Positions 15,463 through 36,265 of a DNA stretch of 64,000 bases are shown one piece after another. The position numbers and the translations under genes were made by a program. Location: positions 1,240,001-1,304,000 of the forward strand of contig NZ_LLKN01000002.1 of the NCBI RefSeq assembly GCF_002900095.1. Direction: 5' to 3'. Below the pieces are notes generated by a model. The model had not been told where the DNA came from. It saw nothing but the letters and a program-made list of their open reading frames with translations, and did no database searches. Every line of letters starts with the position of its first letter. Position 1 is the first letter of the stretch. The DNA is from Salegentibacter mishustinae. Its GTDB lineage: Bacteria; Bacteroidota; Bacteroidia; Flavobacteriales; Flavobacteriaceae.

Positions 15463-15473
15463 TTTTAATTATT

Positions 15474-17063: not shown

Positions 17064-17102
17064 GCTGAAAATAGTTTTTAATATCATTTCATTTTTGGTA
17101 GA

Positions 17103-17158: not shown

Positions 17159-17165
17159 CCATATT

Positions 17166-18868: not shown

Positions 18869-18885
18869 ATTTTAGAGCTTCTAAT

Positions 18886-18906
18886 TTGATAAGCTTTCCT
18901 TATCAA
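18886..18906. terminator. Bidirectional terminator between abiEii and traN
   Basis: TTGATAAG and CTTATCAA form a perfect eight-base-pair stem with a five-base loop between two convergent genes; the right arm overlaps the traN stop. Confidence 0.65.
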
Positions 18907-19736
18907 TTCGGATTATTAATTAACCGATGCGATACCTTTAGTTTTAAATTTCGTTCCCCGTCTTTTTCATTGAGCTCCAAAATCGCCCTCCTTTCTTTAG
19001 ACAATGAAAACTTTGGCAGTACATAAACTATTTTTACAGTTTTATTTTTTCGAACCTTGGTCGGCATCTTGTATTTAAAAACCGGATCCTGGTATAAACG
19101 CTGCAGGGATTTCTTCTTTCCCTTTTTGCGTGTTTCACTGACCAATTTTAAGAAATTGAGATCGTAATCCAGACCTGATCTATTCTCAATTTTGATCACA
19201 AAATAGAGCTGCTCCTTATTAAAAACGATATCCTCAACACTTAATATGATACCGTACTTACGTTTTTTTATCCGGCCAATACGTTGTTTCTTACTAAGCA
19301 AGTAGCTGCAGAATTTTCGGTAATAATCTTCCTTATCGCTTAAGTATTTTTGTGAATTACTGGTCTTAATAGAAACCATAGCAACAGGCTTTTCCTTTCC
19401 TATACTTTCGGCTTTCGGGATAAAATAGTTCAGCCTGGTAAGTTGTTCCTTATACTTCAGGATGTAGGAAAAGACCGATCCATCTTCGCCGATAACGAGC
19501 AAGTTACTTTCCTTGCCGGGTTTGGCTTGCAGTAGGCCAAAATGCTGTTGTTTTTCCCGATTATAAGTAAAAATAAAATTTGCTGCACCCGTAATGCCCT
19601 GGTTGATCGCTTTAGGGAAAAATAGAGCAACATTTTTATAATCATTGGCGTAAATGGTGTCCAGTTTTTCCTGGGTTTGTGCACTGGTGATGATAAAAAC
19701 CAGTAGAGCGGCCTTGGTTAAAATATACTTTTTCAT
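18903..19736 (-). CDS. traN: Conjugative transposon protein TraN (DUF4138)
   Basis: 277 residues with a signal peptide (KYILTKAALLVFIITSAQT) and the DUF4138 pattern (YANDYKNVALFFPKAINQGITGAANFIFTYN near the N-terminus). A Lys/Arg-rich middle and a beta-rich C-terminal part (IVFNKEQLYFVIKIENRSGLDYDL) follow. TraN is a periplasmic or outer-membrane part of the Bacteroidota mating channel, comparable in position to VirB9. It is the last of eight tra genes read on the minus strand in the order E-F-G-I-J-K-M-N. Confidence 0.9.
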   Translation of the reverse strand: MKKYILTKAALLVFIITSAQTQEKLDTIYANDYKNVALFFPKAINQGITGAANFIFTYNREKQQHFGLLQAKPGKESNLLVIGEDGSVFSYILKYKEQLTRLNYFIPKAESIGKEKPVAMVSIKTSNSQKYLSDKEDYYRKFCSYLLSKKQRIGRIKKRKYGIILSVEDIVFNKEQLYFVIKIENRSGLDYDLNFLKLVSETRKKGKKKSLQRLYQDPVFKYKMPTKVRKNKTVKIVYVLPKFSLSKERRAILELNEKDGERNLKLKVSHRLINNPN

Positions 19737-19746
19737 AATGATTGTT

Positions 19747-20733
19747 TTATTGGTTAGCCATTCCCCAGTCGGGTTCAGGTTTGCTGGCTTTGAGAATTAA
19801 TCGGTAATTATTTAGAATAGTCACTTTTAGGTTGCGGTTATTTCGCCGAAACACTTTGCTTATCCCACTGACTTGGGGTAAGCTAGGGATATTGATATCA
19901 CTAATTACATCGTCCAGGACTTCCGTAGTAACTTCCGCTCGGAAATTATTCTCGATGTAAATACCTTCGCTACCATCTTCAAGGTCAAAAGCTTTTAAGC
20001 TAGTTTGATGCTTATTGATATTTTCGATCTCAATCAAGACGCGATTTGGCTGAAAACTCACAAAGCCGAAAACCGGAGTATTTTTGGGGATAAATTTGTC
20101 ACGAATCCTGGCAGGTTGTGCAAGTCGCATTCGAAGCCTGGAGTTTGCTTTCACCACTTGGGTACCATCAACCATCACTTTAATTTCCTTATCGGTAATA
20201 TTTGTAAAATGATCCTTAGATTCCTTGGGAGCAGAAGCAAAAAATAATTGATGTTCCAGTCCCATTTCTTTGGCTTCGATTTTTCGCTTTACTTCAATTT
20301 CCGAAGTATCTACTTTTGGTACTGTTTTTATTAGGCCCGGGCTGTTATTCTCCGGTGGGCTGGTTGGCCGCGTTTGTGTAAGCTTTGCAATTTGGGCCTG
20401 CCGGGCTTTTCCCAGCTCATAAATACTATCGATCTTGCGCTCTTTTTCTTTTTCCAAAAGCTCGGTGTCGTAATAGCCTAAAGAATCTAAAAACGTTTCA
20501 TCATAAATACTTGGCGCATTCTTATCCCGAACTACTTTAAGGTTGTCAATAGCCTCCAGTTTGGAATCATAGGTTTGCTGGCTTTCTTCTTCAAGGTCCG
20601 GGATCTCCGTTTGCCGGAGGTTTTCCTGTTGCTCTTCATCCTCCCCGGTGATCATCAAGGTATAGGAGATAAGAAAAATCACAATGACCGCCAGAACGCT
20701 AATGAATACGATTTTGTTCTTTTCAATTTTCAT
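19747..20733 (-). CDS. traM: Conjugative transposon protein TraM
   Basis: 328 residues: short cytoplasmic start, one membrane helix (IVFISVLAVIVIFLISYTLMI), a charged coiled-coil stretch (about 30-150, rich in Glu, Lys and Gln), then a C-terminal beta domain (LRMRLAQPARIRDKFIPKNTPVFGFVSF and onward). This is the layout of VirB10-like TraM, which spans the envelope and bridges inner and outer membrane parts. It lies 10 bases before traN. Confidence 0.9.
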   Translation of the reverse strand: MKIEKNKIVFISVLAVIVIFLISYTLMITGEDEEQQENLRQTEIPDLEEESQQTYDSKLEAIDNLKVVRDKNAPSIYDETFLDSLGYYDTELLEKEKERKIDSIYELGKARQAQIAKLTQTRPTSPPENNSPGLIKTVPKVDTSEIEVKRKIEAKEMGLEHQLFFASAPKESKDHFTNITDKEIKVMVDGTQVVKANSRLRMRLAQPARIRDKFIPKNTPVFGFVSFQPNRVLIEIENINKHQTSLKAFDLEDGSEGIYIENNFRAEVTTEVLDDVISDINIPSLPQVSGISKVFRRNNRNLKVTILNNYRLILKASKPEPDWGMANQ

Positions 20734-20744
20734 CCGTTTTAATT

Positions 20745-21359
20745 TTAATTTTGTGAGGGTACTTTTCTTAAACTGTTTTCGAAATAATCCGCAATGAGAA
20801 GTCCGTGTGGATTATGGGGGAAGTGACGATCTACGATGAGCAGTTTTCCCGTGGTAACCAGTTCGTAGGTATCCACAATGCTGCCGCGGTTAATCTCGAA
20901 AATAACAGTGGTTTTAAAACCATAGGAACCTTCCTTTTCTTCGAGCTGTGAATCGATCGTTAATACCTTTTGAACCAGCGAGTACTGCAATAAGCGGTTG
21001 TAAACCCCTTCCGCCTTTTTCTGCCTGTATAGGTTGTCTACCGAACTATTGCCAAGCCATAATGCTTTTTCCAGGTTTTTCTTAAAGCTATTGGCATCAA
21101 TATTATAGAAGTAGGTGTGAAACAGCTCCAGGTGGGCAAGGGCCTCCACCTGGAAGTTTTCTTTTTGAGTAACCAGTTTTAATGGAATAATACTGCCATC
21201 GGTGTTGATAGCAAAAGCGGTGTTTAGCGCCTTGTTCCGAGTGGAGATAGCCATCCAAATGGCAAAGGCACTGCAACTCATCGAGCAAACCACTACGGCT
21301 AGTACGATAAAACGGTTGAGTTTTAAAACTGAGTAGATATTTTTATAAGGTGTTTTCAT
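20745..21359 (-). CDS. traK: Conjugative transposon protein TraK
   Basis: 204 residues with one N-terminal membrane helix (LNRFIVLAVVVCSMSCSAFAIWM) and a periplasmic domain carrying HLELFHTYFYNIDANSFKKNLEKALWLG. This is the TraK family of Bacteroidota conjugative elements, VirB8-like in place and topology. It lies 11 bases upstream of traM and 46 bases after traJ. Confidence 0.9.
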   Translation of the reverse strand: MKTPYKNIYSVLKLNRFIVLAVVVCSMSCSAFAIWMAISTRNKALNTAFAINTDGSIIPLKLVTQKENFQVEALAHLELFHTYFYNIDANSFKKNLEKALWLGNSSVDNLYRQKKAEGVYNRLLQYSLVQKVLTIDSQLEEKEGSYGFKTTVIFEINRGSIVDTYELVTTGKLLIVDRHFPHNPHGLLIADYFENSLRKVPSQN

Positions 21360-21405
21360 ATTTAAAATTTTTATTGATTTTAATCGGATAAAATCCTAAT
21401 GAGCT

Positions 21406-22254
21406 TTATGTGGTGAACAGTCTCAGTGTAAAAGAAATAGCACGCCTGTAGAGTTTGAATTTTAAAATCACGATAAAAGCTATAGATCCCAGCTCTACAA
21501 CCGGGGCAAAAAAACCGCTCCCGTAATCCGTACCGAATAGGTTTTCCCAAAAATTGGTATTAATTTCTGTGTAAAGGGCATTGATAAACACATTAACCAG
21601 GAAGAAGGCTGGGACCAGCATATATACCGCCGCATACAGCCTGAAAAAGCCATAAGCCATCGAGCGAAACTTCTCAAATACCGCCAGACTAAGCACCAGG
21701 GGAAAAAAGGCCTGCATTATTCCTAATAGGAAATAACGTTCCGCCAGGAATAAGGGATAGATGAATAAATCCAGCATCCATAAGAACAGGCTAATTAAAA
21801 ATGCAAAGGTTTTAAAGCCGTAAAGGGGTGTCACCAGGGCCTCATAAAGTAAGGCCATGGCTTTGCGCATCGCCCCCATAGGGGAGACATCTTCTTCTAT
21901 AGGAATCTCTTGCATCTGAAGAGGTAATAGGGCAGGGGCGGTGTCGCGATACTGGTTTTCAATGGCCACAAGAATGTTGTCAAAGAATCCCAGGATTTGC
22001 GTTGAAAAAATAACCAGCAGAACTACCGCAAAGTTTTTCGCCAAATCACCGGGGGAAAGCCCCCAGGTATAGCCCTGCCTATCGGCTACCCCTTCATTAT
22101 ACTTTTTAAGGATGTTGACCAAAAAGAAGAGCACCGCCAGAGTTTTCATACCTACGATTGTATACTGAGAAAATTCGCTCTCCTGGATGGTTTGGAAAAC
22201 GCTGTCGATATATTCGACACCTACGGCCATTATGATCATTCCTTCCATCATCAA
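21406..22254 (-). CDS. traJ: Conjugative transposon protein TraJ
   Basis: 282 residues with about six or seven membrane helices and the conserved loop NKYRDTAPALLP-like segment (here ENQYRDTAPALLPLQMQE). It matches TraJ of Bacteroidota elements, VirB6-like in the channel core. The start region has several Met (MMMEGMIIMAV); the first overlaps the traI stop by four bases, which supports coupled translation. Confidence 0.9.
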   Translation of the reverse strand: MMMEGMIIMAVGVEYIDSVFQTIQESEFSQYTIVGMKTLAVLFFLVNILKKYNEGVADRQGYTWGLSPGDLAKNFAVVLLVIFSTQILGFFDNILVAIENQYRDTAPALLPLQMQEIPIEEDVSPMGAMRKAMALLYEALVTPLYGFKTFAFLISLFLWMLDLFIYPLFLAERYFLLGIMQAFFPLVLSLAVFEKFRSMAYGFFRLYAAVYMLVPAFFLVNVFINALYTEINTNFWENLFGTDYGSGFFAPVVELGSIAFIVILKFKLYRRAISFTLRLFTT

Positions 22255-22832
22255 AAGCCTGTTTCCCGGTTATTGATCTTATCCTGCATTTCTCGAAAAG
22301 AAATGATCTCGCGGTAACGCTTGGTCTTTAACCGCACATCGGTGACCATTTCTTTAGACTCGAGTTCTTTTTGCTTTAAAACCTCCGCCCGCTCGGCATC
22401 ACTCATTTTTAAATGATCACTTGATAAGATTTCATCGATAAACCTTGCGTTCTCCAGGGAGTTTTCTACGACGGCACTGAAGGATTCGGTGACCCGACTT
22501 ACTTCTTCTGGTTTGATGTAAGGGGAATTCAAAATATCCCGAAGGTCATCCTGCATCACCGCAATAAGGCGTTGGTTGTTACGACCTATCTCACGAACGG
22601 CTTTTAAATCCTGCACTACGCTATTGACCTTCTCAATACTCTCTTTCTGTGCCTTTAAAAAGTTGACGGTCTTGACAAGATTAGCGGTTTGCTTGGCCGA
22701 TTCAACCAGGGATTTAACCAGGCTGACGAAGTTCGTATTATCATACACCGGCATCCCCTGGCAGGCAGCGCCTGCAGGCAAGCATAAAGCAAGGGCTATT
22801 GTAAATACTAAAGTTTTGTGTTTATTTTTCAT
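22251..22832 (-). CDS. traI: Conjugative transposon protein TraI (DUF4141-like)
   Basis: 193 residues with a signal peptide ending near AACQG, then a long helical, Lys/Glu-rich body (SLVESAKQTANLVKTVNFLKAQKESIEKVNSV and onward). This is the form of the DUF4141/TraI family, comparable to VirB5 pilus-tip-type proteins. It lies between the traG ATPase gene and traJ, as expected for the E-F-G-I-J order. Confidence 0.8.
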   Translation of the reverse strand: MKNKHKTLVFTIALALCLPAGAACQGMPVYDNTNFVSLVKSLVESAKQTANLVKTVNFLKAQKESIEKVNSVVQDLKAVREIGRNNQRLIAVMQDDLRDILNSPYIKPEEVSRVTESFSAVVENSLENARFIDEILSSDHLKMSDAERAEVLKQKELESKEMVTDVRLKTKRYREIISFREMQDKINNRETGF

Positions 22833-22861
22833 ATCAAAGTGTTTTAAATTGTGATGTGCGC

Positions 22862-25264
22862 TTAGGGCTGTTTGATAAATTCCTTGATAGCCTTTTCCAT
22901 ATTTTTGGTCTTTTTATAAATGGCCATTATGGCCTCGTTTTCGGTTCCGTCGGTGAGATAGGCAGCATAGACTTCGGGTGGTACTTCCAGGCGGAAAATG
23001 TTACTTTCCTTACCGATCTTGATAAAGATCTCGGTGTACTTCCGTTTTCCGGTCAAATTATTCCTGATCGATTTCAACTGCTTGCGATCATGGCTGGAGA
23101 GGCTCAAGCGCTTGACCAGTTCTTCATAACCTTTTTCATTATTCAGGCTGTAAATCACCTGGGTGTTTTCCAGGATGCTTGAGGAAGTCGCATTATTAGG
23201 AAGCTGATTTATGGATTGTAAGATAATTCCAATGGCCCCGTTCTGTTTACGGATTGCCTGGTAGTAGAATTCCACGCTTTCCAAGACATTTTCAAACTTG
23301 AGTTGCTTGGCGAATTCATCAAAAAGGATGATTCCCTTTTCTGCTCTGTTTTTCCAGATCGTACGTTGGATCGCTGACTTGATTAGTTTGAGCATCACCG
23401 AGAGAATCTCTTTATTGTCCTTGACTTCATCGAGTTCAAAGACAATCAGCCGCTTATCTTCGATCTTGTAAGTTTGATCTTCGCTAACTTCAAATAAGAA
23501 GCTGTATAGACCATCGCCGACATACTCCGAGAGCACGTGCAAAAAGTTGGTAACATTGAAGTAGTCGGGATGGATTTTAAGGGTCTCCAGCAGCTCATCT
23601 TTTCGGTGCTCGATAAAACGGTAAAAACTATCTAAGGAATGGTTTCCCGTGGTGTTTTTGTAATAGTAACGGAGGATCTTTTTTATGGCTACGGATTGTG
23701 CTTTAGTAACCTTGTCATCTGCAGCAATGAGTTCCAATAGGAACACCGAAAGATCCTCCAGCCGCTCTGGACTTACATCATCGATATTTGATATGTAGAA
23801 AGGATTAATACCTAGACTTTTTCCGCTCTTGTAGCGCAAAACAGTGTACTTATCAGGATAGAGTTTAGCGAACTTGGTATAAGAACCTCCTAGATCGATA
23901 ATCACCAGGCGTACCCCGTTTTCAAAATATTGACGTAGAATGTTATTGGCCAGAAAGGATTTTCCTTCCCCGGTAGGGGCGAAGATGGCAAAGTTCCGCG
24001 CCTTGATGCGTTTCTTTCCCTCATCCCAAACATCTTTTAGTACAGGAATATTATGCTCACGGTCATTAAAAATGATGCCGGTAGGGTCCGATTTATAATT
24101 GGTATTATTGATATAGAGACACAAGGCATGTTTCATATCGGTCACATAGAGATCTTCATCGGAAAAATTGGAAGAGAAGCAGCAGTAGCTGTTTAGCAGG
24201 TAATTCTTTCGTTCCTCACCCCGTGGAGCGTAAGGGGTAATATCGAGTTCCTTGAACTCAGCCTTAATTTTAGAGGCAATGCCTTCCAAATTACGAGGAT
24301 CACGATCCCAGAAGATCACATTAAGATGGCCCCGGATAATCCGCGAGTTATCATCGCTATTAATCTTTTCCAGGATTTCCTGGATCTTTCCTAAAATGAC
24401 TTTGTTTTGAGACCCGAAATTTGAACTTTTGCTGAGCTCTTCAACTTTTTTATCCAGTAGCTTGCGCCATTTGTGTTTATCATCCAGGTAGAGTACCTGG
24501 TTGACTATATGGTTCTCTCTTAAATGAAGCCCCAGCCCATCAATAAACCCCTGGTGAAATACAAAGTCATCAGATGTGAATTTCTCATTGGTTTTGCTCG
24601 ACTGTACCCTTTCGCCAAAGCACAGCTCGCTATTGATAGCCAGGGCATCAAAATAATTGTCCCCCGTTTGAATATGTTGTTTTTCGAGTAGGATATCAGT
24701 ATCGAAACCTTCATTAAAACCGTTGAAGTATTCGGTAGTTAGGGTAGTGATTTCTTCTGGTGGTATTGCTTTTATAGAAACCTTTCGGCTGTTAGCAATA
24801 AAGGAAACACAATCGTTTACTGAGCCGATAAAGCTTTTAAAGTTGGCATCCAGTTCACTTACAATTTCTTTGGAGACTTTCCGAAAAGGGTTTACATATT
24901 TGAAGTTGTTTAAAGCTTTGTTCCTGGTCAGGGTGAAAAATATTAAAGAGCGGTGCGCTATATATTCCCGATCTTTAAAATGATCCCGTGTGGCTTTTTC
25001 TAAAAAGGTTATGTTTGGAAGTGAAGTTGCAGTGAATGCTTTCTTCTCATAAATATCCTGCTTTTGCACTACTGTACCCACCGGCAGGGACTTAAGCGCC
25101 TGAAACCAGGTGGCGTGCAGGTCTTCAAAATCTTTTTCCGATAAGGAGTAAATTTCAGGTAGGTCAAGCCGGTAACATAGGACGATGTTACCGTTTGCGG
25201 TAAAAACAACATTGTCCCGAATATCTGTAATAGGCCAGTGAGAGGCGAGGTTAATCTTTTTCAT
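22862..25264 (-). CDS. traG: Conjugation ATPase TraG (VirB4 type)
   Basis: 800 residues. Walker A is APTGEGKS at 429-436 (FAIFAPTGEGKSFLANNILRQYF) and Walker B lies in KGIILFDEFAKQL. The N-terminal half (ADLDxPEIYSLSEKDFE-like start, here CYRLDLPEIYSLSEKDF) is the VirB4 coupling domain. It powers pilus and channel assembly at the inner membrane. The start overlaps traF by 14 bases. Confidence 0.92.
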   Translation of the reverse strand: MKKINLASHWPITDIRDNVVFTANGNIVLCYRLDLPEIYSLSEKDFEDLHATWFQALKSLPVGTVVQKQDIYEKKAFTATSLPNITFLEKATRDHFKDREYIAHRSLIFFTLTRNKALNNFKYVNPFRKVSKEIVSELDANFKSFIGSVNDCVSFIANSRKVSIKAIPPEEITTLTTEYFNGFNEGFDTDILLEKQHIQTGDNYFDALAINSELCFGERVQSSKTNEKFTSDDFVFHQGFIDGLGLHLRENHIVNQVLYLDDKHKWRKLLDKKVEELSKSSNFGSQNKVILGKIQEILEKINSDDNSRIIRGHLNVIFWDRDPRNLEGIASKIKAEFKELDITPYAPRGEERKNYLLNSYCCFSSNFSDEDLYVTDMKHALCLYINNTNYKSDPTGIIFNDREHNIPVLKDVWDEGKKRIKARNFAIFAPTGEGKSFLANNILRQYFENGVRLVIIDLGGSYTKFAKLYPDKYTVLRYKSGKSLGINPFYISNIDDVSPERLEDLSVFLLELIAADDKVTKAQSVAIKKILRYYYKNTTGNHSLDSFYRFIEHRKDELLETLKIHPDYFNVTNFLHVLSEYVGDGLYSFLFEVSEDQTYKIEDKRLIVFELDEVKDNKEILSVMLKLIKSAIQRTIWKNRAEKGIILFDEFAKQLKFENVLESVEFYYQAIRKQNGAIGIILQSINQLPNNATSSSILENTQVIYSLNNEKGYEELVKRLSLSSHDRKQLKSIRNNLTGKRKYTEIFIKIGKESNIFRLEVPPEVYAAYLTDGTENEAIMAIYKKTKNMEKAIKEFIKQP

Positions 25265-26713: not shown

Positions 26714-27802
26714 ATGTATACAGAGCTTATTAAAATAATTGAAGGTGGTCTTAATCACAATCCAAAGAAAGTTGTCAGTTATTCTAAACACTTGGCCAAA
26801 AAGTTAAGAGAAGATGGAGCGGATAAACTTGCAGATAAGATTATGAAAACTATTGAAGGTTCAACAGGTATTCCTGTATATAAAGATCAATTATTTGATG
26901 CACCTGTAGATAATGATACAAGACTAAATATTGCTGACATTATTCTACCTCAAGATATAAAGTTAGATATTTTGCTTTCTGAAAGTATTCAAAACCCTGT
27001 GAATAATTTTATCTCTCTGGTTAATTCAAAAAATGAAATAGAAAGTAAGGGCCTGGAAATGAATTTATCATTATTGCTTTATGGCCCACCTGGATGTGGG
27101 AAAACAACATTAGCTAAGCATATTGCTAAAGAATTAGATATTCCTATAGTGATAGCTAGATTTGATTCTTTAATATCATCACTTTTAGGTAATACCGCAA
27201 AGAATATCAGAAAATTGTTTGATTATGCAAAAAGTAAACCATGCATATTATTTCTTGATGAGTTTGATGCAATTGCTAAAGCAAGAGACGATAATCATGA
27301 AACAGGTGAGTTAAAAAGGGTAATCAATAGTTTGCTTCAAAATATTGACGATTTTTTAGAAACAGGTATTCTAATTGCTGCTACAAATCATGAACAACTG
27401 TTAGATAGCGCCATTTGGAGAAGGTTTGAAAAGGTAATTAATGTAAACAAACCAAATTCAGACGAAATTAAGAACCTTATAGGGAGCTATTTTAATAAAG
27501 TAGACTCAAAACTAGATATTGAAGACAAGAAGTTTGATATGTTATCTTCTTATTTAAATGATTTCTCACACTCTGAAATAATTAAGATTATAAATAGTGC
27601 CTTTTACAATTCAATTATTAAAAACAAAGAATTTGAATATGATGAAATTTTTTCTGAATACTTCAAATACAAACACAACAATAGGTTTACGCCAGAAGAA
27701 ATGATACGTTTTTTAAATGAGAGTCATATACCTCAAAAACAAATTGCCAGTTACCTTGATATTTCAATAAGACAAGTGAGAAACGCATTAAATGTAGAAT
27801 AA
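26714..27802 (+). CDS. AAA+ ATPase, IetA-like (defence/stability pair with the following subtilase)
   Basis: 362 residues: N-terminal helical region, then an AAA+ core with Walker A GPPGCGKT (124-131), Walker B ILFLDEFD (178-185), sensor 1 AATN (222-225) and an arginine-rich WRRFEK just after it. The C-terminus is a small helix-turn-helix (IPQKQIASYLDISIRQVRNAL). The next gene starts two bases after its stop and encodes a subtilisin-like protease. This pairing is that of IetA-IetS, described in Agrobacterium as a plasmid stability/incompatibility pair with IetS as toxin and IetA as antitoxin, and reported as an anti-phage system. It is AT-rich compared with the surrounding tra and mob genes. 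Confidence 0.8.
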   Translation: MYTELIKIIEGGLNHNPKKVVSYSKHLAKKLREDGADKLADKIMKTIEGSTGIPVYKDQLFDAPVDNDTRLNIADIILPQDIKLDILLSESIQNPVNNFISLVNSKNEIESKGLEMNLSLLLYGPPGCGKTTLAKHIAKELDIPIVIARFDSLISSLLGNTAKNIRKLFDYAKSKPCILFLDEFDAIAKARDDNHETGELKRVINSLLQNIDDFLETGILIAATNHEQLLDSAIWRRFEKVINVNKPNSDEIKNLIGSYFNKVDSKLDIEDKKFDMLSSYLNDFSHSEIIKIINSAFYNSIIKNKEFEYDEIFSEYFKYKHNNRFTPEEMIRFLNESHIPQKQIASYLDISIRQVRNALNVE

Positions 27803-27803
27803 G

Positions 27804-30491
27804 ATGGCAAAAAAGAATTTACCTATAAAGTTATTTCAAAAAAGGGAAAAAACTGATGATAGAAGAGTCGAAGGTGGGGGTGGTGATTCAATACCAAAAT
27901 GGCAACTCGAAGGAGAAGAGCTTTCAGCAAGAGCTCAGAGTCTTTTAGAACCGCTAAATGAGTTAAATATAATTTTTAAAACTCGTGATAATACAAGGAG
28001 TTTTATTCCTGCAACTTTACGTGTAGATATTGATGATTTAGCTATTGCAAAAACTCATAGAAAAGACATTCAGAAGTTGTTCAACGGTCGGTATACTAAA
28101 AATAATATTATTGGTTTTATAGATTCTAATAGTGCTATTGTAAAAGTAGATAATATTGAAGATAGCAACGCTATAAGAAGGAATATCAAAAATTATCACA
28201 GTAACCCTAAAGCGGTTTCTGCTGTAGAGACTATTGAAATATATGAACCATTTATTGTAGATTTTGAAGAGAATGAAACTGTAAAAATTTCGCTGATAGA
28301 TTTTCTAAACTATGAAGTAAATAACGCAGTTAAGCGATCATTCGAAAAATACTGTGAGCAAAAAAACGTAAATATTATAGAAACAAATTACTCGTCAGGC
28401 TTAATCATTTTTAAAATCAAAAATGCAACTAAAGCACAATTAGATAGTATTAGTGATTTTGAAGCCTTAGAATCTATAACGTTTATGCCAAAATATAGCG
28501 TGGGTATGGATCTTTTGGAAACAACGGAAGCACTTGATATTAAGGAACCCATTAAGGATGAAAAATATCCTATTGTTGGAGTTCTTGATTCTGGTATCTC
28601 GAAAAATAAGTATCTAAAACCTTGGCTTTTGGATAGAAATTATTCGTCATATCCAAAAGAATTAATAGATCCAACTCACGGTTCTTGTGTTTCTAGTATT
28701 ATTATATATGGTGATGAATTGGAAGGGCTAAACTGGACAGGTAATTCTGGGTGTAAACTTTTTGACGCAACTGTATTTCCTGATGAAAAAAAAGAAAGAA
28801 TAGATGAGGATGAGTTAGTTCTAAATATTAGAACAGCAATAAAGAATAATTCTGATATTAAAATTTGGAATCTTTCCTTAGGTACAGCATCTGAATCGGA
28901 TTTAAGTGATTTTTCAGATTTTGGAAAAGCCTTAGATGATATTCAAATATCAAATGATGTGATTATTTGTAAGTCTACTGGAAATTGTAGAAACTTTGAG
29001 AAAGGTTTTCCTAAAAGTAGAGTTGCTCGGTCTGGTGACTCAATGAGGTCACTAGTTGTAGGCTCAATAACACATTCCAAAAATGAGAGTGATATTGCAG
29101 AAATAAATCATCCATCACCTTTTACTAGAATTGGTCCAGGTCCTGCTAATAGTATTAAACCAGATTTAGTCTCATATGGTGGCAATGCTGGAATGCATGA
29201 AGGGAGAAGAATTGAAAACGGCGTTAAAGCTATTGCAGCAGATGGCAGTTCTGTAAAAATAATTGGAACTAGTTTTTCAACACCAAGAGTAACTTCGCTA
29301 TTGTCAGAATTAAATTTTAAAGTAAAAGAAAACTTTAATCCAACTTTATTAAAAGCATTAGCTATTCATTCAGCTAAATATCCTTCAGGTGTAAATTTTA
29401 CGATAGGCGAAAAGGTGAATCAAATGGGTTTTGGTGTAGCCTCTTCAGCAGACGAGATTATCTATAATGACCCGCACGAGATTACTTTGGTATTGCAGGA
29501 GAACATTAATAAAGGTGAATTTATCGAGATACTTGATTTTCCTTTTCCAGAAAGTTTGATTAACGACGACGGCTTCTTTTATGGTGAAATTAAAATAACA
29601 TTGGTAGCGCAACCTGTATTAAGAGAAAAACAAGGAGCTGAATATTGTCAATCACATTTAAAATTACGATTTGGTACTTATGATGATATAAAAAATAGAG
29701 ATACAACTAAAGCAAATATTCTAAATCCAATAGGGCCCGGTGATCCAAAAAATGTAATACTAGATTCTAATTACGGTAGCGTATATAAAAAAGATACCTC
29801 TAGCGATTATGCTAGAGAAAGAATGCTTTTAAACTATGGTAAAAAATACCAACCTATTAAAAAACATTCTATTAATCTTGATGAAATGACTGCATCTAGA
29901 CAAAGAGATAGTTTGGCAGCGGGAAGAAAATGGTTTGCTGAGATAAGAGGAATTTATCGCGATTTTGCTCTAACAAGATCTGAAGAAGATGGAGAAATTT
30001 TAAATCAAGATTTTACTTTAATAATAACTATTAGAGATACCAAAGGAGAACAGCAAGTTTATAACGAAGTGTCTAGATTATTGGCGGATAGAAACTTTCT
30101 CCACTCTAATATAAAAATAAGGGAAGAAATCCGAATAGAGGTTGATTCTTCAGTAGGTGCAGAAGTAGTAGATGATGAGCTACAACTTTGGGAAATTGAA
30201 GCAATTAAAAGAGCTGAAATACTCATGAATATAGCCCACCCTGATTTAGAGAATAATACCTTGATTTTCGAATATGATATTGATAATCAAATTGAAGGAT
30301 TCACAGCAAACGACTTAGACACGTTATCTAAATATTTAGAAAATCAAGTTGAGAAAGTAGCAATTAATTATATGCCATTAGATGAAGAAATTAGAAAAAT
30401 GGAAATTAATAAATTGGATAGTAATAAATTAATACAATCTGGTATCAATGATAATATAGATAAACTATTAATGCTAGGTTGGGTAAGATAA
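27804..30491 (+). CDS. Subtilisin-like (S8) serine protease, IetS-like
   Basis: 895 residues with no signal peptide, so probably cytosolic. The catalytic triad can be read: Asp262 in VGVLDSG, His292 in DPTHGSCVSS and Ser490 in GTSFSTP, with Asn394 (STGNC) as oxyanion residue. The first ~250 residues and the last ~330 are extra domains; the C-terminal part ends in an acidic helical region (DKLLMLGWVR). This three-part layout fits IetS. It is translationally close to the AAA+ gene (two-base gap), as in the known toxin-antitoxin or defence pair. The trigger and substrate are unknown. Confidence 0.82.
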   Translation: MAKKNLPIKLFQKREKTDDRRVEGGGGDSIPKWQLEGEELSARAQSLLEPLNELNIIFKTRDNTRSFIPATLRVDIDDLAIAKTHRKDIQKLFNGRYTKNNIIGFIDSNSAIVKVDNIEDSNAIRRNIKNYHSNPKAVSAVETIEIYEPFIVDFEENETVKISLIDFLNYEVNNAVKRSFEKYCEQKNVNIIETNYSSGLIIFKIKNATKAQLDSISDFEALESITFMPKYSVGMDLLETTEALDIKEPIKDEKYPIVGVLDSGISKNKYLKPWLLDRNYSSYPKELIDPTHGSCVSSIIIYGDELEGLNWTGNSGCKLFDATVFPDEKKERIDEDELVLNIRTAIKNNSDIKIWNLSLGTASESDLSDFSDFGKALDDIQISNDVIICKSTGNCRNFEKGFPKSRVARSGDSMRSLVVGSITHSKNESDIAEINHPSPFTRIGPGPANSIKPDLVSYGGNAGMHEGRRIENGVKAIAADGSSVKIIGTSFSTPRVTSLLSELNFKVKENFNPTLLKALAIHSAKYPSGVNFTIGEKVNQMGFGVASSADEIIYNDPHEITLVLQENINKGEFIEILDFPFPESLINDDGFFYGEIKITLVAQPVLREKQGAEYCQSHLKLRFGTYDDIKNRDTTKANILNPIGPGDPKNVILDSNYGSVYKKDTSSDYARERMLLNYGKKYQPIKKHSINLDEMTASRQRDSLAAGRKWFAEIRGIYRDFALTRSEEDGEILNQDFTLIITIRDTKGEQQVYNEVSRLLADRNFLHSNIKIREEIRIEVDSSVGAEVVDDELQLWEIEAIKRAEILMNIAHPDLENNTLIFEYDIDNQIEGFTANDLDTLSKYLENQVEKVAINYMPLDEEIRKMEINKLDSNKLIQSGINDNIDKLLMLGWVR

Positions 30492-30535: not shown

Positions 30536-30569
30536 AATCCAATCTATTGCTTGAACAATAAATTGGATT
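30536..30569. terminator. Hairpin after the subtilase gene
   Basis: AATCCAAT (30536-30543) pairs with ATTGGATT (30562-30569), with an inner ATTG/CAAT pair. No good T-run follows on the plus strand, so read-through into the ubiquitin-like cassette is possible. Confidence 0.4.
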
Positions 30570-30634
30570 ATAAAATGGGATTTAAAGTTTTGACGGACTC
30601 TATAATATAAGGCTTATCTACCTTATAACTCCCT

Positions 30635-30737
30635 TTGTACTGTACTACAATGGTAATACTTTTTTAAATATTACACAAGTTTTGTTGTCAGATACGTCAA
30701 AACAGTAACCGTTCTCATACTGAGAATAAATGAGAAC
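30635..30737 (+). promoter_or_regulatory. Promoter and inverted repeat upstream of the ubiquitin-like cassette
   Basis: A -33 TTG (30635-30637) and a -7-like TACTTTTT (30657-30664) are 19 bases apart. Downstream, GTTCTCAT (30711-30718) and ATGAGAAC (30730-30737) form a perfect inverted repeat, with a further TGAGAA copy between them. The frame's first ATG (30730) lies inside this repeat, which argues for the later start at 30763. Confidence 0.5.
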
Positions 30738-30762
30738 ATTAATATTTAATATAATTATTACA

Positions 30763-31206
30763 ATGAAAAATTTTATTTACAAAGTTAACAGAAAGAAATT
30801 TGAGACAGTTAACACAATTATTACAGGAAAAGAAATTTTAGAAAATGCAAATTTGTTGCCTGTAGAAGATTACGAATTATTAATTAAGGTAAACGAAAAA
30901 GGTTTCGAACCAGTTCAATTAAATGAAGAAATTGATTTAAAAGGAGCTGGAATTGAAGGTTTTTTTGCTAAACCTTATAAGAAGCTAATAATTTATGTTG
31001 ATGACGAACCTGTTGAAGTTGATGAATGTTTTATGACACCAAATGAAATACTAACTGCTGCTGGGAAAAATGCTAATGGTTTTTATTTAAAACAAATTAG
31101 AGGACATAAGGAAGTTAGTTACAAGAATGACAGAGAGCATAAAATTGCCATTAAAAATGGTTTAAAATTTAGTTCGTGTAAACTTGAACCTACAACTGTT
31201 TCATAG
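30763..31206 (+). CDS. Tandem ubiquitin-like (multiubiquitin, PF14452-type) protein
   Basis: 147 residues from the ATG at 30763. Two similar beta-grasp halves can be seen: residues 2-73 (FIYKVNRKKFETVNTIITG KEIL through KPYKKL, with a TGKEIL helix) and 74-147 (LIIYVDDEPVEVDECFMTPNEIL and onward). The pattern strand-strand-helix start (T-G/P-x-E-I-L) repeats in both. These are the multiubiquitin proteins that travel with E2-like and E1-JAB genes in bacterial ubiquitin-like conjugation operons. The C-terminus ends in KLEPTTVS with no Gly-Gly, so either the tail is processed or the last residue is attached directly. It is the first gene of a three-gene cassette. Confidence 0.82.
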   Translation: MKNFIYKVNRKKFETVNTIITGKEILENANLLPVEDYELLIKVNEKGFEPVQLNEEIDLKGAGIEGFFAKPYKKLIIYVDDEPVEVDECFMTPNEILTAAGKNANGFYLKQIRGHKEVSYKNDREHKIAIKNGLKFSSCKLEPTTVS

Positions 31207-31208
31207 TT

Positions 31209-31568
31209 ATGGGAAATCAAGGGTTAATGAGTCAGTTGCAAAACAAAGGGCTCGAAACTTGGATGCACACAAATAACTTTGTGTGCTTCAAGTTTATCGT
31301 ACCAATAGGAAGATTTAAAGGACAAGAAATTGAAATCGCTTTACAAGGTCAACAATTTCCAATGTTACCGCCTTCAGGTCCACATATAAAACCGCATTTA
31401 CTTCCTATTACTGGGGGTGGAGGCACACATCCTTATGGTGGAATACACGACAGAAAAGTTCCTACACAAGAATATCAGTATTGGAGTAGACCATTTAAAG
31501 GCTGGACTTCTGGTATGACTGCAGATGATTATTTAGCATTTTTAAGAACATTATTGGATTTCGAATGA
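31209..31568 (+). CDS. E2-like conjugating protein (Prok-E2 family E type) without a visible catalytic Cys
   Basis: 119 residues. The strand NNFVCFKFIVPIGRFKGQEIEIAL followed by QQFPMLPPSGP matches the E2 strand 3-4 and YPxxPP loop. GTHPYGG stands where E2 enzymes have HPN and EYQYWSRPF where they have the W-x-P loop, and a C-terminal helix (MTADDYLAFLRTLL) follows. The only Cys is residue 26, inside the early strand and not after the HP motif where ubiquitin E2s keep it. This suggests either another catalytic residue (Ser or His in the HDRKVPTQEYQYWS stretch) or direct transfer from E1. Two bases separate it from the ubiquitin-like gene, and it overlaps the E1-JAB gene by four bases. Confidence 0.72.
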   Translation: MGNQGLMSQLQNKGLETWMHTNNFVCFKFIVPIGRFKGQEIEIALQGQQFPMLPPSGPHIKPHLLPITGGGGTHPYGGIHDRKVPTQEYQYWSRPFKGWTSGMTADDYLAFLRTLLDFE

Positions 31569-33055
31569 AGTATAGTATAACAATGACAGAAAATGTCAAT
31601 AGGATATTTTTTGAGCACCTCATTCGAGAGGATGGTCAAGAAGATTTATGCTTTGCTTTTTATAAATTATCTTCTGGTAAATCACGAAAAACAGGAGTGA
31701 TTAATGAAGTAATTTTACCAGAATTTGGAGACAGAAATGTACACGGAAATGTAAGTTTTAATTCAGCTTATTTTGATAAAGTCACATCTTATGCTTTAGC
31801 TAATAATTTTGGTATCTGTTTTATACATAGTCATCCTTATCCAGGTTGGCAAGGAATGAGCTTTGATGACATAGAGGCAGAGAAAATGTTAGCTCCAAGA
31901 GTTAAGGCCGTAACAGGATTACCTCTAGTTGGTATGACAATTGGGACAGATAATTATTGGAGTGCACGCTTTTGGATAAAAGAAACTCCAAATACTTATG
32001 AGAGATATTGGTGTGAATCTGTAAGGGTAGTAGGGAAGTCCCTAAAAACCTATTTCTGTGATGATATTTTTCCAAAGTCTAATTTCGGAGAAGAGTTTAA
32101 ACGTACTATTTCATCTTGGGGGGATTTAAAACAACATGAAATTTCTAGGTTAAAAATCGGAATAGTAGGATTAGGTAGTGTGGGTTCTATAGTTGCTGAA
32201 GCTATTATAAGGACAGGAATAAGGAATTTAACACTTATCGATTTTGATCTAGTAGAATTGAAAAATTTAGATAGATTATTAGCAATAAATAGAGTTGATA
32301 TTGGAAAATTTAAAGTAGATGTTCAAAAAGAGCGTTTTTTAAAAACTGAACTCATTTCAGATTTAAGTATTAATGCTGTTCCGTATAGTATTACTGAAAA
32401 AGAAGGACAAGAAGCAGCTCTTGATTGTGATATTTTATTTTCCTGTGTAGATATGCCTTTACCAAGATATGCTTTAGATTGCTTGTCATTTGCAAATTTA
32501 ATTCCAGTAATTGATGGTGGAATTGATACAAATCCAAAGGATGATTTATCAAATATTGACCAAGCAAGATGGAAGACTCACACAATAGGACCTGAAAGAA
32601 TATGTATGCAATGTTTAGGTCAATATAAACCTGAAGATGCTGCATTGGAAATATCAGGAGAGTTGGATAATCCGAATTATATTAAAGGATTACCAAAGAA
32701 TCATTTTATTAATAGAGGTGAAAATGTTTTTGGTTTTAGTTTGAGTTTAGCAGGAATGGAAATACAACAATTCTTATCCTTGATTTTGAAACCAAGAGGA
32801 ATTAATTATGGTCCGAAAGAAATGGATTTCAATACAGGGAATATAGATTTCGATTTTGAAAATGAATGCAGACAAGATTGTGCAATTTCTCAAGGTTTAC
32901 TTGGTTGTGCAGATGAATTGAATAAAACTTTGATAATAAAACATTTAGGAGCAGAAAATAATAGAATGAAACATGAAAATTCCATAGTAAATAAAAAGAA
33001 CAAAGGATTTTATACATTTTTCAAAGAATCTATAAATTCCTTGTTTAGTTTTTAA
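31565..33055 (+). CDS. JAB protease-E1 (ThiF) fusion of a ubiquitin-like conjugation cassette
   Basis: 496 residues. The N-terminal JAB/JAMM domain carries IHSHPYPGWQGMSFDD: His88, His90, Ser99 and Asp102 are the metal and catalytic pattern of ubiquitin-like isopeptidases. From about 197 an E1/ThiF adenylation domain follows: GLGSVG (202-207), LIDFDLVELKNLDR (226-237) and SCVDMPLPRYALD (294 and on). Zinc-type Cys pairs are CMQC (347-350) and CRQDC near the end. Cys294 is a possible thioester Cys. One polypeptide thus joins the activating and removing enzymes of the tandem ubiquitin-like protein. Similar operons (Bil and multiubiquitin types) are linked to phage defence. Confidence 0.85.
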   Translation: MKYSITMTENVNRIFFEHLIREDGQEDLCFAFYKLSSGKSRKTGVINEVILPEFGDRNVHGNVSFNSAYFDKVTSYALANNFGICFIHSHPYPGWQGMSFDDIEAEKMLAPRVKAVTGLPLVGMTIGTDNYWSARFWIKETPNTYERYWCESVRVVGKSLKTYFCDDIFPKSNFGEEFKRTISSWGDLKQHEISRLKIGIVGLGSVGSIVAEAIIRTGIRNLTLIDFDLVELKNLDRLLAINRVDIGKFKVDVQKERFLKTELISDLSINAVPYSITEKEGQEAALDCDILFSCVDMPLPRYALDCLSFANLIPVIDGGIDTNPKDDLSNIDQARWKTHTIGPERICMQCLGQYKPEDAALEISGELDNPNYIKGLPKNHFINRGENVFGFSLSLAGMEIQQFLSLILKPRGINYGPKEMDFNTGNIDFDFENECRQDCAISQGLLGCADELNKTLIIKHLGAENNRMKHENSIVNKKNKGFYTFFKESINSLFSF

Positions 33056-33063
33056 TTTTTTTA

Positions 33064-33104
33064 GCTGCATATAGTGAGTCGTTATTTCAAAAGCTATTTG
33101 CAGC
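33064..33104 (+). terminator. Terminator after the ubiquitin-like cassette
   Basis: GCTGCATATAG (33064-33074) pairs with CTATTTGCAGC (33094-33104), one mismatch in eleven, followed by a T-rich stretch (CTTTAATTTTTGTTTC). Confidence 0.7.
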
Positions 33105-33444: not shown

Positions 33445-34107
33445 TTATTCTCTTTTATCACGACTACTTTTCTCAAAAGCAATCAAATTAAATAACTCCC
33501 GCATTCTGCTTCTAACACGGTTCCCATAGCGCTCTTCCAATTCTTCAGCATTTAAATTTGTAGTAGCGTGTGTCTTCAATCTTTTACGGGTTTCAAGGTA
33601 GAGTTCATATCTTGAAAGCAATACTTCACCCATCACATTCAAATCTTTGCCATAGAATCTCCCAGGGGGCTCTACACCCAGGTCATCAAAGCAGAAAAAC
33701 TTAGTATTACCATAATCTTCAATGGTTTTATAACCCAAGTGGTTAAAACTAAAAGTAACGTTGCGGCAAGGAATCATTTCATATGGACGTTGCCTGGGAG
33801 CCAAATGCCTTAATAATTTCATTAATGAAGTCTTTCCACATCCTACCGGTCCGGAGAGTAAAATTCCTTTCTCAATATCCAATCCATATTTTTTGCAGTT
33901 GTCTTTATCCCTTAGGAAATATGAAATTAGTTTTAGCAGAATAGTTTTGTCTTCTTTGTAAATCTTGAATTGCTTTCCAAAAAGAAGCTTTCCCTTGGCA
34001 TTGAGATAAATTAAGATTTTTTTGAAATCATAGTGCACGTAGCTCCCATCAAATTTGCCCAGGGAATACTCCACGCCACCTTCGGTTATTTTAGAGGGGT
34101 TGACCAT
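33445..34107 (-). CDS. DnaC/IstB-like ATPase (replication helper of the element)
   Basis: 220 residues with Walker A GPVGCGKT in ILLSGPVGCGKTSLMKLLRHLA, Walker B KFFCFDDLGVEPPG and a sensor region KTHATTNLNAEELEERYGNRVRSRMRELF typical of helicase-loading DnaC/IstB ATPases. It overlaps the preceding replication-like gene by 17 bases on the same strand. These two are regularly found together in Bacteroidota elements and would support replication of the excised circle. Confidence 0.83.
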   Translation of the reverse strand: MVNPSKITEGGVEYSLGKFDGSYVHYDFKKILIYLNAKGKLLFGKQFKIYKEDKTILLKLISYFLRDKDNCKKYGLDIEKGILLSGPVGCGKTSLMKLLRHLAPRQRPYEMIPCRNVTFSFNHLGYKTIEDYGNTKFFCFDDLGVEPPGRFYGKDLNVMGEVLLSRYELYLETRKRLKTHATTNLNAEELEERYGNRVRSRMRELFNLIAFEKSSRDKRE

Positions 34108-34843
34108 AATCTTTATTTTTACTGGTTCGCAAGTTGTCCCGGAATTGGGACGCCCCGTTTTGGTATGTCTTCTTTTTTTCTTTGGCCAGCATAAATTTAT
34201 CCATCCAATGCATGGCTAGTGCCTGCCAATCTCTGATCTCTAATCCATCACTGGTTTTCCATTCCCTACTTTGATAATATTCAAAGAATTTTTTTCCGTA
34301 ATCCGAATTAAAATTTTTACTATTAAAAAAATCTAAAATTACCTTCAAGCTGTTTGGTTGTTTATTATGTTTTCTTTGTTTGGTATTGTTTATAGTAGAT
34401 ACCAATGCTTGTCCACCTATGGGACGCTGTGAGTACACAGCTTGTCCATTATTGGGAGGGTGCCGATTCATTACAGGTTCTTCTATGGGATGGTAGCGTT
34501 CCGCAAGTTGTTCTAGTTTGGGATCGTAATGTCCCTGATCTGGTTCATCGGTTGTCCCAATAATGGCCATCTTAATTTTACTGCCTTTGTAGGGATTATT
34601 TGATGGGAAGTAGCTAAGGTATTCCCAAGTATCAAGATCGGTTACACACCTATGATAAGTAGATTTTGAACCGATCTTGGCTACCTTCATTAAATCCCTT
34701 CGATTAACAAAAAAGTTATCTGCAAACCGGCTGCTATTCCATTCCTGGAATAAGGCCATATACAAACTGATATGGGTAGGATTTAAACGGTCATCAAAAT
34801 AGAATTTCTCAAAAGCGGCGTTTAGTTGCTTGATATAGTTCAT
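34091..34843 (-). CDS. DnaD/replisome-organiser-like protein
   Basis: 250 residues. The N-terminal ~100 residues form a winged-helix type region (MNYIKQLNAAFEKFYFDDRLNPTHISLYMALFQEWN...NRRDLMKVAKIGSKSTYHRCVTDLDTWEYL). A variable Pro/Gln-rich linker comes next, then a C-terminal helix pair (VILDFFNSKNFNSDYGKKFFEYYQSREWKTSDGLEIRDWQALAMHWMDKF) like the DnaD/phage replication family. It overlaps the DnaC-like gene and lies two bases after the excisionase-like gene, so the three form an operon. Confidence 0.72.
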   Translation of the reverse strand: MNYIKQLNAAFEKFYFDDRLNPTHISLYMALFQEWNSSRFADNFFVNRRDLMKVAKIGSKSTYHRCVTDLDTWEYLSYFPSNNPYKGSKIKMAIIGTTDEPDQGHYDPKLEQLAERYHPIEEPVMNRHPPNNGQAVYSQRPIGGQALVSTINNTKQRKHNKQPNSLKVILDFFNSKNFNSDYGKKFFEYYQSREWKTSDGLEIRDWQALAMHWMDKFMLAKEKKKTYQNGASQFRDNLRTSKNKDYGQPL

Positions 34844-34845
34844 TG

Positions 34846-35127
34846 TTATAGATCTAAATTAAGTACACGATTATCTTCCATGACCTTTTGGATTTCCGCA
34901 GCATCATAATAAATAATCCCGCCTATTTTGGTATAGGGTAGCGTGCCGTTTACTCGGAGGTTTTGAAGTGTTCCCGGGCTTATTTGTAAATAATCCATAA
35001 CTTCTGAAGATTTCAGATATTTTTTTATTCTACCTGGTTTCTGCTCGTTCAGTAGTTGTTTAATGTCTTCGAGTAACTCTATTTTGAAATCCTGAAGATC
35101 GTCTGTAGTAATAATTGATGTTGGCAT
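34846..35127 (-). CDS. Excisionase-like helix-turn-helix protein
   Basis: 93 residues: acidic N-terminal helix, then a MerR/Xis-type winged helix (YLKSSEVMDYLQISPGTLQNLRVNGTLPYTKIGGIIYYDAAEIQKVM). The fold is that of excisionase or element regulatory proteins in Bacteroidota. It is the first gene of the unit with the DnaD- and DnaC-like genes. Upstream at 35233-35251 lies the palindrome TTTTTCG-n5-CGAAAAA, a possible operator. Confidence 0.78.
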   Translation of the reverse strand: MPTSIITTDDLQDFKIELLEDIKQLLNEQKPGRIKKYLKSSEVMDYLQISPGTLQNLRVNGTLPYTKIGGIIYYDAAEIQKVMEDNRVLNLDL

Positions 35128-35232
35128 AATAGAACAAATTTTATGGCTGGGAACATTTCATTTGTTAGTTCCTGACCTGGTTTATAATTGTTCTATAAAA
35201 TTGAAATTGTTTCCAGGAAATAATTCCCTAGG

Positions 35233-35251
35233 TTTTTCGTAGTACGAAAAA
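35233..35251. promoter_or_regulatory. Palindrome upstream of the excisionase-like gene
   Basis: TTTTTCG (35233-35239) and CGAAAAA (35245-35251) with five bases between, 106-124 bases upstream. A related TTTTCGTAGTAACGA occurs near 35352, close to the rteC stop. Confidence 0.4.
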
Positions 35252-35380
35252 GTTTAACGTTTAATAGAAAACGATGAGAATTGATTCAATTTAAGATTCA
35301 GGTAGGAGGGAAGAAGTAGAAATTCTTTGTAAAATTAATGGAGCGCTGATTTTCGTAGTAACGATTTACTTCGAAAAAAA

Positions 35381-36265
35381 TTATTTTTCATCATCCTGTC
35401 GCATTTTGGCTTCCAACTTTGCAGCTATTTGGTGAAGATATTTACTCCTAGGATCTTTTCTGGCTCTCATCTCACTATAAGTCTTATGATAATTATCGAG
35501 CTTAATATTAAAAAAGTCTTCAAATGCAGAGATAAGTGTTTTAAGATCTGCAGTCCCATGGTTGATATCCCCTTTAAGGTATAAACCATAAATTACTTCT
35601 ACTAAGGAAGTTTTAGATCCAGACCATAGTAGAAGATTTGGTTGACGTTCCCGGAAATCTCCGCTACTTCCCGGTTGAATCAGTTCCAACTTCTCCCGAA
35701 TATAATGTATGTAGCGGTAAAGCGCCTGGACCTTAGACCAAAGCATATCGTGGCTGGTCGAAAATTCAGGATTTTGATAATAGTTTATAGTAGGGCTAAA
35801 GGAGAAATCCATCTTACCACTGCGGCTGAAAAATTGTGGATCCAGGTAATTGTGGTTTTGCTCCATATAGTTGACAAAACTGTTATTTTCAGAAAAAAAT
35901 CTATTGATCTTTTTAACCTCCTTTTCCAAATAACGAACTTTATGAGAATTACCGACTTTTGGGAGCTTTAATTCACAAGACCGGACTTCGGTGAAATAAA
36001 TAAGATAGCTCATAGGTAACGGTTTTATATTTTTAAAAAACTCGATTTCTGCTTGAGTATTTTCAAAATCATCCTTATCTACTTGCTTTTGCAATTTGGA
36101 AAGAATTTTAATGCATAAACTAATGCCATCTTCAGCTTTCTTCAAATCAGGTTTACCTGACTGAATTAAGCTTTCAACATTTTCGCTGAATATAGACATT
36201 GTTTTCTCGAACATGAGATTTGTATTTAATGAAAACAAATAATGCCTTTGCTGTGCTATTTTCAA
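35381..36265 (-). CDS. rteC: RteC-like element regulator
   Basis: 294 residues; an alternative start is Met18 (MFEKTMSIFSEN) at 36214. The conserved RteC segment FFKNIKPLPMSYLIYFTEVRSCELKLP is present, with a helical N-terminal half and a C-terminal winged-helix-like region (LYLKGDINHGTADLKTLISAFEDFFNIKLDNYHKTYSEMRARKD). In CTnDOT, RteC activates excision genes. No rteA/rteB pair is present in the window. A G6-TGTT motif lies just upstream. Confidence 0.82.
   Translation of the reverse strand: MKIAQQRHYLFSLNTNLMFEKTMSIFSENVESLIQSGKPDLKKAEDGISLCIKILSKLQKQVDKDDFENTQAEIEFFKNIKPLPMSYLIYFTEVRSCELKLPKVGNSHKVRYLEKEVKKINRFFSENNSFVNYMEQNHNYLDPQFFSRSGKMDFSFSPTINYYQNPEFSTSHDMLWSKVQALYRYIHYIREKLELIQPGSSGDFRERQPNLLLWSGSKTSLVEVIYGLYLKGDINHGTADLKTLISAFEDFFNIKLDNYHKTYSEMRARKDPRSKYLHQIAAKLEAKMRQDDEK

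Follow-up and report, generated by a model that had tools for sequence, protein, structure and literature searches.

A three-gene ubiquitin-like cassette of Salegentibacter mishustinae without conserved catalytic cysteines, placed by sequence comparison near the Bub pathway

Textbook accounts of ubiquitin-like transfer describe thioester chemistry at cysteines, and a compact gene cassette in Salegentibacter mishustinae raises the question of how such transfer might run in a system that keeps no conserved catalytic cysteine. The cassette encodes a ubiquitin-like protein (Ubl), an E2-like protein and a fusion of a JAB protease with an E1, and lies in a stretch of 64,000 nucleotides (positions 1,240,001 to 1,304,000 of contig NZ_LLKN01000002.1, assembly GCF_002900095.1), hereafter the window. 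An earlier note on this DNA had described a ubiquitin-like cassette with a Cys-less E2 and probable non-thioester chemistry, a description that stands. The novelty of the cassette is not supported: sequence comparison makes it a distant offshoot of Bub, the bacterial ubiquitination-like pathway (operon type 6e), a family characterised as an operon type in 2006 and since named and structurally solved. The lack of Cys in the E2 is thus a family trait already in print, since the account of type 6e by Iyer, Burroughs & Aravind (2006; PMC1779556) places a Cys-less E2-like protein between the Ubl and the JAB-E1.

The three genes are laid out on the plus strand, in window coordinates, as follows.

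30763..31206, plus strand: Ubl of 147 amino acids with two Multi_ubiq-type stretches (PF14452), ending in Val146-Ser147; start set by conservation
31209..31568, plus strand: E2-like protein of 119 amino acids, catalytic region without Cys; its branch matches classic Bub E2s in profile-profile comparison
31565..33055, plus strand: JAB-E1 fusion of 496 amino acids; ThiF 102.8 bits; Citrobacter BubCD (PDB 9ea4) matched at E 9.7e-17

The coordinates first given for the linked E2-like and JAB-E1 genes agree with ours, and the Ubl gene is likewise real but had been started too early, at 30730: relatives L006 and L010 have no ATG there, whereas 5/5 aligned loci share the one at 30763, which makes the Ubl 147 residues long. 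The same three genes occur in all seven loci confirmed by a scan of genome contigs (Arenibacter, Zobellia, a Flavobacteriaceae isolate, a Flavobacteriaceae metagenome-assembled genome, an Algibacter metagenome-assembled genome, Galbibacter and Nonlabens), with E1 identities of 67-92%. The ratio of non-synonymous to synonymous substitution rates (dN/dS) against the window genes was 0.07-0.17 in 14/16 gene pairs; the other two pairs, both Ubl, were saturated, and dS exceeded 1 in four of the 14 estimated pairs. As relatives retain both the genes and their order at these ratios, the cassette is not a chance arrangement: it is real and, where tested, under purifying selection.

Its distribution is sporadic. 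Among 60 genomes, the window's included, JAB-E1 relatives were near full-length in two (G000, G005) and more distant in a third (G014), and just 2/395 genomes of the order held one, again counting the window's own. Viral contigs searched with E2, E1 and IetS queries yielded no relatives, and plasmids searched with the window E2-like protein gave no match. The same branch was seen on actinobacterial plasmids (L002, L003, L033-L038).

Placement near Bub draws on all three proteins. The JAB-E1 fusion comprises a JAB domain (residues ~1-165) and a ThiF-type adenylation domain (180-320), followed by the crossover loop and a C-terminal part; BubCD is its best match among solved structures, and BubCD chains also took the top eight places in a fold search, made with a low-confidence model that served for this search alone and whose top matches agree with the sequence search. 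A profile of the E2-like branch aligned with classic Bub E2s over 106 columns (probability 96.2, E 2.3e-9), as against 0.3% for a control comparison with the Ubl alignment. The Ubl scored 46.4 bits with PF14452 (cut-off 24.5), and its best solved matches were BilA (8u38, E 6.4e-6) and the multi-ubiquitin protein 9d5b. A ThiF-type E1 domain might equally serve a sulphur-carrier or other biosynthetic role, as in ThiS/ThiF-like pairs; yet the Ubl has no terminal Gly, the JAB is fused, the closest solved structure is BubCD rather than ThiF or MoeB, and nine proteins scanned in and around the cassette showed no sulphur-metabolism family besides that domain. We regard such a role as extremely improbable.

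Five conserved sites bear on the chemistry.

31826..31870, plus strand: JAMM motif H88-S-H90-P...S99-x-x-D102 of the JAB domain
32603..32614, plus strand: C347-x-x-C350 of the E1, a probable zinc pair and the sole invariant Cys columns of the branch (17/17)
32678..32680, plus strand: Tyr372 codon in the E1 crossover loop, aligned with BubCD Tyr370
31485..31487, plus strand: Ser93 codon of the E2-like protein, the sole invariant column among 18 diverse E2-likes
31198..31203, plus strand: codons of the conserved Ubl C-terminus, Val146-Ser147

In an alignment of 32 JAB-E1s the JAMM residues E26, H88, H90, S99 and D102 were identical throughout and the adenylation residues identical in 31 or 32 of the sequences, confirming what had been read from the window by itself, namely one chain with both sets of motifs intact. 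MoeB/ThiF-type enzymes carry their catalytic Cys in the crossover loop. The E1s studied here have no conserved Cys in that loop, a point unforeseen in the earlier note: between the CxxC columns and that of N387, a Cys occurs in only one sequence of 47, and the crossover-loop column is Tyr in 47/47 E1s of four subtypes. The corresponding BubCD residue stands at chain position 372, which becomes Tyr370 once a two-residue offset, read from D104A, is corrected. Since the title of PDB entry 9eav, BubCD(D104A/Y370F)-BubB-BubA, carries Y370F, its depositors evidently deemed this tyrosine worth mutating; we infer that it is a nucleophile in BubCD, and a catalytic part for Tyr372 in the window enzyme is somewhat more probable than not.

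The E2-like protein, as had been seen at the outset, holds a single Cys (C26) and none beyond its HP motif. C26 is kept in 8/8 flavobacterial rows and in just 5/18 diverse E2-like rows, so the alignment shows that it is not the conserved active site, and we rejected it as such. His74 and His80 were also discarded as candidate nucleophiles, being present in 4/18 and 6/18 diverse E2-likes respectively; of the suggestion that transfer passes through Ser or His, the serine half therefore survives, Ser93 being invariant in 18/18, and the histidine half falls. Ser93 was again invariant in a second E2-like set (14/14), which has five proteins in common with the first, the two sets giving 27 distinct proteins overall. 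In 22 of these 27, a Trp follows the Ser at +5 to +9; the step from Cys85 to Trp93 in UBE2D2 is +8, and Ser93 was compared with the canonical E2 site solely by this spacing, placement by hhalign being weak.

Thioester chemistry might nevertheless be hidden in E2 Cys26, or in C294 or the CxxC of the E1. C26 is, after all, universal among close relatives, C294 is frequent (16/17, 14/15 and 9/13 by subtype), and of the branch's seven actinobacterial E2-likes, five have a Cys aligned with window residue 84, nine positions before Ser93. Against this stand the patchy occurrence of C26 in the diverse set and its position in an early predicted strand (low confidence), the pairing of C347 with C350 as a CxxC, and the 46/47 E1s without Cys in the stretch where one would be looked for. 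Taken together, these make a hidden thioester highly unlikely, and Cys-free chemistry very likely.

Ser93 also bears on a different possibility, that the E2-like protein serves as an RWD-type scaffold without catalytic function, the Ubl passing from the E1, as an adenylate or a Tyr372 ester, directly to its target. This comes near the 2006 reading, in which the Cys-less E2-like domains of type 6e were termed 'likely to be catalytically inactive' (PMC1779556), and it accords with a subtype pairing a Ubl with another E1 and DUF6527-like genes, in which 15/15 loci (L075-L089) gave no E2-like match at E <= 1e-3. A scaffold would sit less easily with a serine that stays invariant while the remaining E2-like sequence diverges and that keeps nearly the canonical Cys spacing from a conserved Trp, or with the PDB entries in which BubB is bound to BubCD. 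On balance we consider the scaffold a doubtful though serious alternative, and hold the assignment of Ser93 as a nucleophile tentatively, as a plausible one falling a little short of probable.

The Ubl tail is the third distinctive feature. The ending EPTTVS without Gly-Gly, reported from the window sequence, was confirmed and proved to be conserved: Val146 is invariant in 18/18 branch Ubls, the last residue is Ser in nine and Ala in nine, and none ends in Gly. Three actinobacterial tails read GGVA, and of two haloarchaeal Ubl candidates one ends in Ser and the other in Glu. Because a non-Gly end is conserved, we argue that the tail functions in its encoded form, and Ser147 itself is, by a modest margin of likelihood, the residue adenylated; the JAB may still trim the tail. 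A literature text search, outside which the main Bub papers lay, found nothing on a V-[SA] Ubl tail.

These observations can be joined in one scheme. The E1 part would adenylate the Ubl C-terminus at Val-Ser instead of Gly-Gly; the activated Ubl would then be handed on by oxygen nucleophiles, most likely Tyr372 in the E1 crossover loop and/or Ser93 in the E2-like protein, and would finally pass to an amine on a presumed target, the fused JAB protease trimming the tag or taking it off. Bub is itself said to use Cys-independent, oxyester-type chemistry. We think it likely that the cassette is a diverged Bub-type (6e) conjugation system working without catalytic cysteines.

Several results weigh against this scheme or loosen its details. 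The residue-84 Cys of the actinobacterial E2-likes has been mentioned, and the classic rows L094 and L097 have one Cys each, at residues 85 and 90. An AlphaFold2 model of the E2-like protein, built on an eight-row alignment, reached a pLDDT of 54.7, and a Foldseek search with it found no fold match at E <= 0.001; as the model is poor and without a fold match, no structural claim, the position of Ser93 included, is based on it. The JAB-E1 model fared no better (pLDDT 49.0). Comparison with canonical E2s by hhalign was weak (probability <= 11%), and Prok-E2_E (PF14462) scored 16.2 bits with the window protein, under its cut-off of 25, while matching 10/18 members of alignment A3 at E <= 0.1. A profile of the branch E2s by themselves had BubB as its top match but at E 1.2; a pooled profile matched BubB at E 1.8e-18, which is not independent because the pool contains five classic Bub E2s. 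Lastly, 4/6 classic standalone Bub Ubls have the terminal Gly that the window Ubl lacks.

Whether the cassette is a unit of its own was asked of its flanks, where three signals lie.

30536..30569, no strand: inverted repeat at the 5' edge of the cassette, with 14-nt arms (93% complementary), kept with or without IetAS upstream
30634..30664, plus strand: promoter-like stretch TTTG-N19-TACTTTTT, within the conserved 5' region
33064..33104, plus strand: 3' hairpin followed by a U-rich tail, a probable terminator

The cassette had been credited with its own promoter-like site, inverted repeat and terminator. Consensus scans lend this no help: promoter matches in the window numbered 12, against 17.5 in shuffles, a Bacteroidota-type pattern occurred nine times against 9.65 expected, and a terminator scan had a single match where 1.0 was expected, namely the inverted repeat read on the minus strand, and missed the 3' hairpin, whose loop is longer than the scan permits. 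Conservation and folding do help. The hairpin folds better than 200/200 shuffles (z = -3.06), and the stretch running from inverted repeat to start codon is conserved across loci with IetAS upstream (window, L006, L010) and loci with other upstream genes (L007, L008). Since this 5' block persists regardless of IetAS, the cassette seems to be a separate unit.

Downstream lie mobile-element genes, including RteC and an HTH_17 protein, and more widely the regions 14431-25264 and 33445-36265 of the window hold TraG-like, DUF5712, HTH_17, RteC and AbiEii-type genes around the cassette, those of the TraG-like and DUF5712 kinds to its left; these surroundings suggest a conjugative element with defence cargo. 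The slot beside the cassette appears exchangeable, holding in different loci an HTH/M78 regulator with an AbiEii-type gene, an MqsR/MqsA-Panacea pair, an M78 gene or IetAS. Such slot genes were located as follows.

L007 2544-4706: slot genes beside the cassette
L011 3601-4953: slot genes beside the cassette
L091 10602-11417: slot genes beside the cassette

In the window, the slot is filled by IetAS.

26714..27802, plus strand: IetA-type AAA+ ATPase (PADLOC IetA, 456 bits), an upstream neighbour dispensable to the definition of the cassette
27804..30491, plus strand: IetS-type subtilase of 895 amino acids (PADLOC PDLC02201, 1108 bits over residues 1-781), with an extra C-terminal ~115 amino acids

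By PADLOC, at these scores, the two genes qualify as an IetA and IetS pair, a known phage-defence module based on a protease, while NCBIfam models fell below their cut-offs (359 vs 510 and 346 vs 900). The extra ~115 residues (30147-30488) bring IetS to 895 residues in the window, L006 and L010, against about 780-794 elsewhere in the clade, and matched nothing in Pfam above cut-off (best, DUF4854, 18.4 vs 28 bits).

Might the two modules then be parts of a single tag-and-degrade defence system in which IetA/IetS would act on proteins carrying the Ubl? Only two IetS proteins in 395 genomes of the phylum exceeded 1000 bits with PDLC02201, the window's and that of G211, and each lies directly upstream, on the same strand, of a Ubl/E1 cassette, the cassettes being of different subtypes. 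Two Hymenobacter plasmids share one IetAS locus (IetS 44% identical to the window's), followed by an MBL-like gene, assigned by Pfam at E 0.047 and so under cut-off, and an E2-E1-JAB fusion. A fourth lineage, G048 (IetS 67% identical), has no E1 or Ubl nearby. Three of the four lineages seen in this close clade thus adjoin Ubl/E1 systems, of three different subtypes; a search for more found one new lineage (G048) in 198 relatives and none in 295 genomes of the class. The clade loci are these.

Window 26714-30491: IetS clade locus
L080 10081-13632: IetS clade locus
L108 and L109 5901-9385: IetS clade loci
L112 7351-10809: IetS clade locus

Beyond G048, the joint system is opposed by 14 more distant IetS loci (two plasmid, twelve of the phylum) without E1 or Ubl, the downstream side in L113 and L116 lying within 0.6 kb of a contig end; by L007, L008, L009, L011, L012 and L099, which have the cassette and no IetAS match in their flanks (the DNA of L009 extending less than 0.6 kb upstream); and by the cassette's own 5' block. 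Defence genes cluster in any case, numbers are small, and the choice of the window was not blind to its neighbours. The adjacency is suggestive, not proof, and we think a joint system unlikely. Its fuller form, a composite 'ubiquitin-protease' defence unit in which proteins would be tagged by Cys-free Tyr/Ser oxyester relays with a Ubl ending in Val-Ser, and IetA and IetS, the latter with its extra C-terminus, would act on the tag or be switched by it, is quite unlikely; if true, it would be a functional parallel of ubiquitin and proteasome. The text search described above likewise found nothing on IetAS beside Ubl systems, and an earlier proposal linking Ubl conjugation to AAA+ or peptidase conflict systems concerns a different kind (PMC7159879).

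Two related arrangements deserve mention. The L075-L089 subtype consists of a JAB-less E1, a Ubl and DUF6527-like genes; its Ubls end in Ser in 15/15 loci, the Ubl frame being taken from the stop codon adjoining the E1 start in eight, and its E1 is ~390 residues long in 13 loci, with a reading frame of ~250 in L088 and L089 (the DUF6791 label of the E1 N-terminal part was checked in L080 alone). A Rhizobium plasmid (L041 2252-7344) carries a classic operon (Ubl-E2 / JAB-E1 / DUF6527-like) and, convergent with it, genes for an AAA ATPase and for an S8 peptidase whose relationship to IetS is only distant (E 5e-5).

The observation that began this work was right, and the family is a known one; what merits a bench test is the variation seen in this branch, in its tail motif and in its neighbourhood. 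At the positions where a Cys would be looked for, the alignments reveal family-wide residues, a Tyr for the E1 loop and a Ser for the E2-like protein, and they show that a conserved Ser or Ala, and not just Gly, can close a Ubl tail. The conserved Tyr and Ser make the choice of point mutants easy, a branch this distant offers a place to test the generality of the Bub mechanism, and one IetS clade beside different Ubl/E1 systems allows a concrete test of whether Ubl tagging is coupled to a dedicated protease in bacteria. A role in stress or defence is conceivable: a 2025 review holds that such systems seem to act mainly against phages (PMC12687455), while the source of the name Bub and of a count of 544 operons used here states that phage protection is not demonstrated (PMC13373217).

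Among known systems, IetAS is an upstream neighbour module separate from the three-gene cassette. CBASS type II Cap2 and 6A-MBL systems have an E1-E2 fusion with a cyclase or MBL partner; the cassette shares their ThiF-type E1 domain (7to3) and differs in gene set. In Bil (BilABCD), the E2 and E1 use Cys and the JAB is a separate protein, whereas the cassette, whose Ubl is related to BilA (8u38), has no conserved catalytic Cys and a JAB fused to its E1. With operon type 6e it has in common a JAB N-terminal to the E1, one to three Ubl repeats and a Cys-less E2/RWD-like protein in between; the hosts given for 6e are proteobacteria, cyanobacteria and certain actinobacteria (PMC1779556), and ours is a Flavobacteriaceae-like case with a much diverged E2. 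Set beside Bub (Citrobacter BubA, BubB and BubCD; PDB 9ea4, 9ea5, 9ea8, 9eae, 9eav), the cassette differs in an E2 branch joined clearly to Bub E2s through profile-profile comparison alone, in a Ubl ending in Val-Ser rather than the Gly common in classic members, and in the window's lack of any DUF6527 match at E <= 1. Regulators of the CapW, CapH+CapP or CapK+CapS types are reported beside a subset of Bub operons and hence do not define them; none was found among the direct neighbours scanned (IetAS and mobile-element genes), and HTH/M78 or M78 genes adjoin the cassette in relatives L007 and L091. What Bub and the cassette share is the whole plan, a Ubl, a Cys-less E2 and a one-chain JAB-E1, together with the JAMM, the crossover-loop Tyr (Y370 = Y372) and the Ser of the (W/H)S(R) motif.

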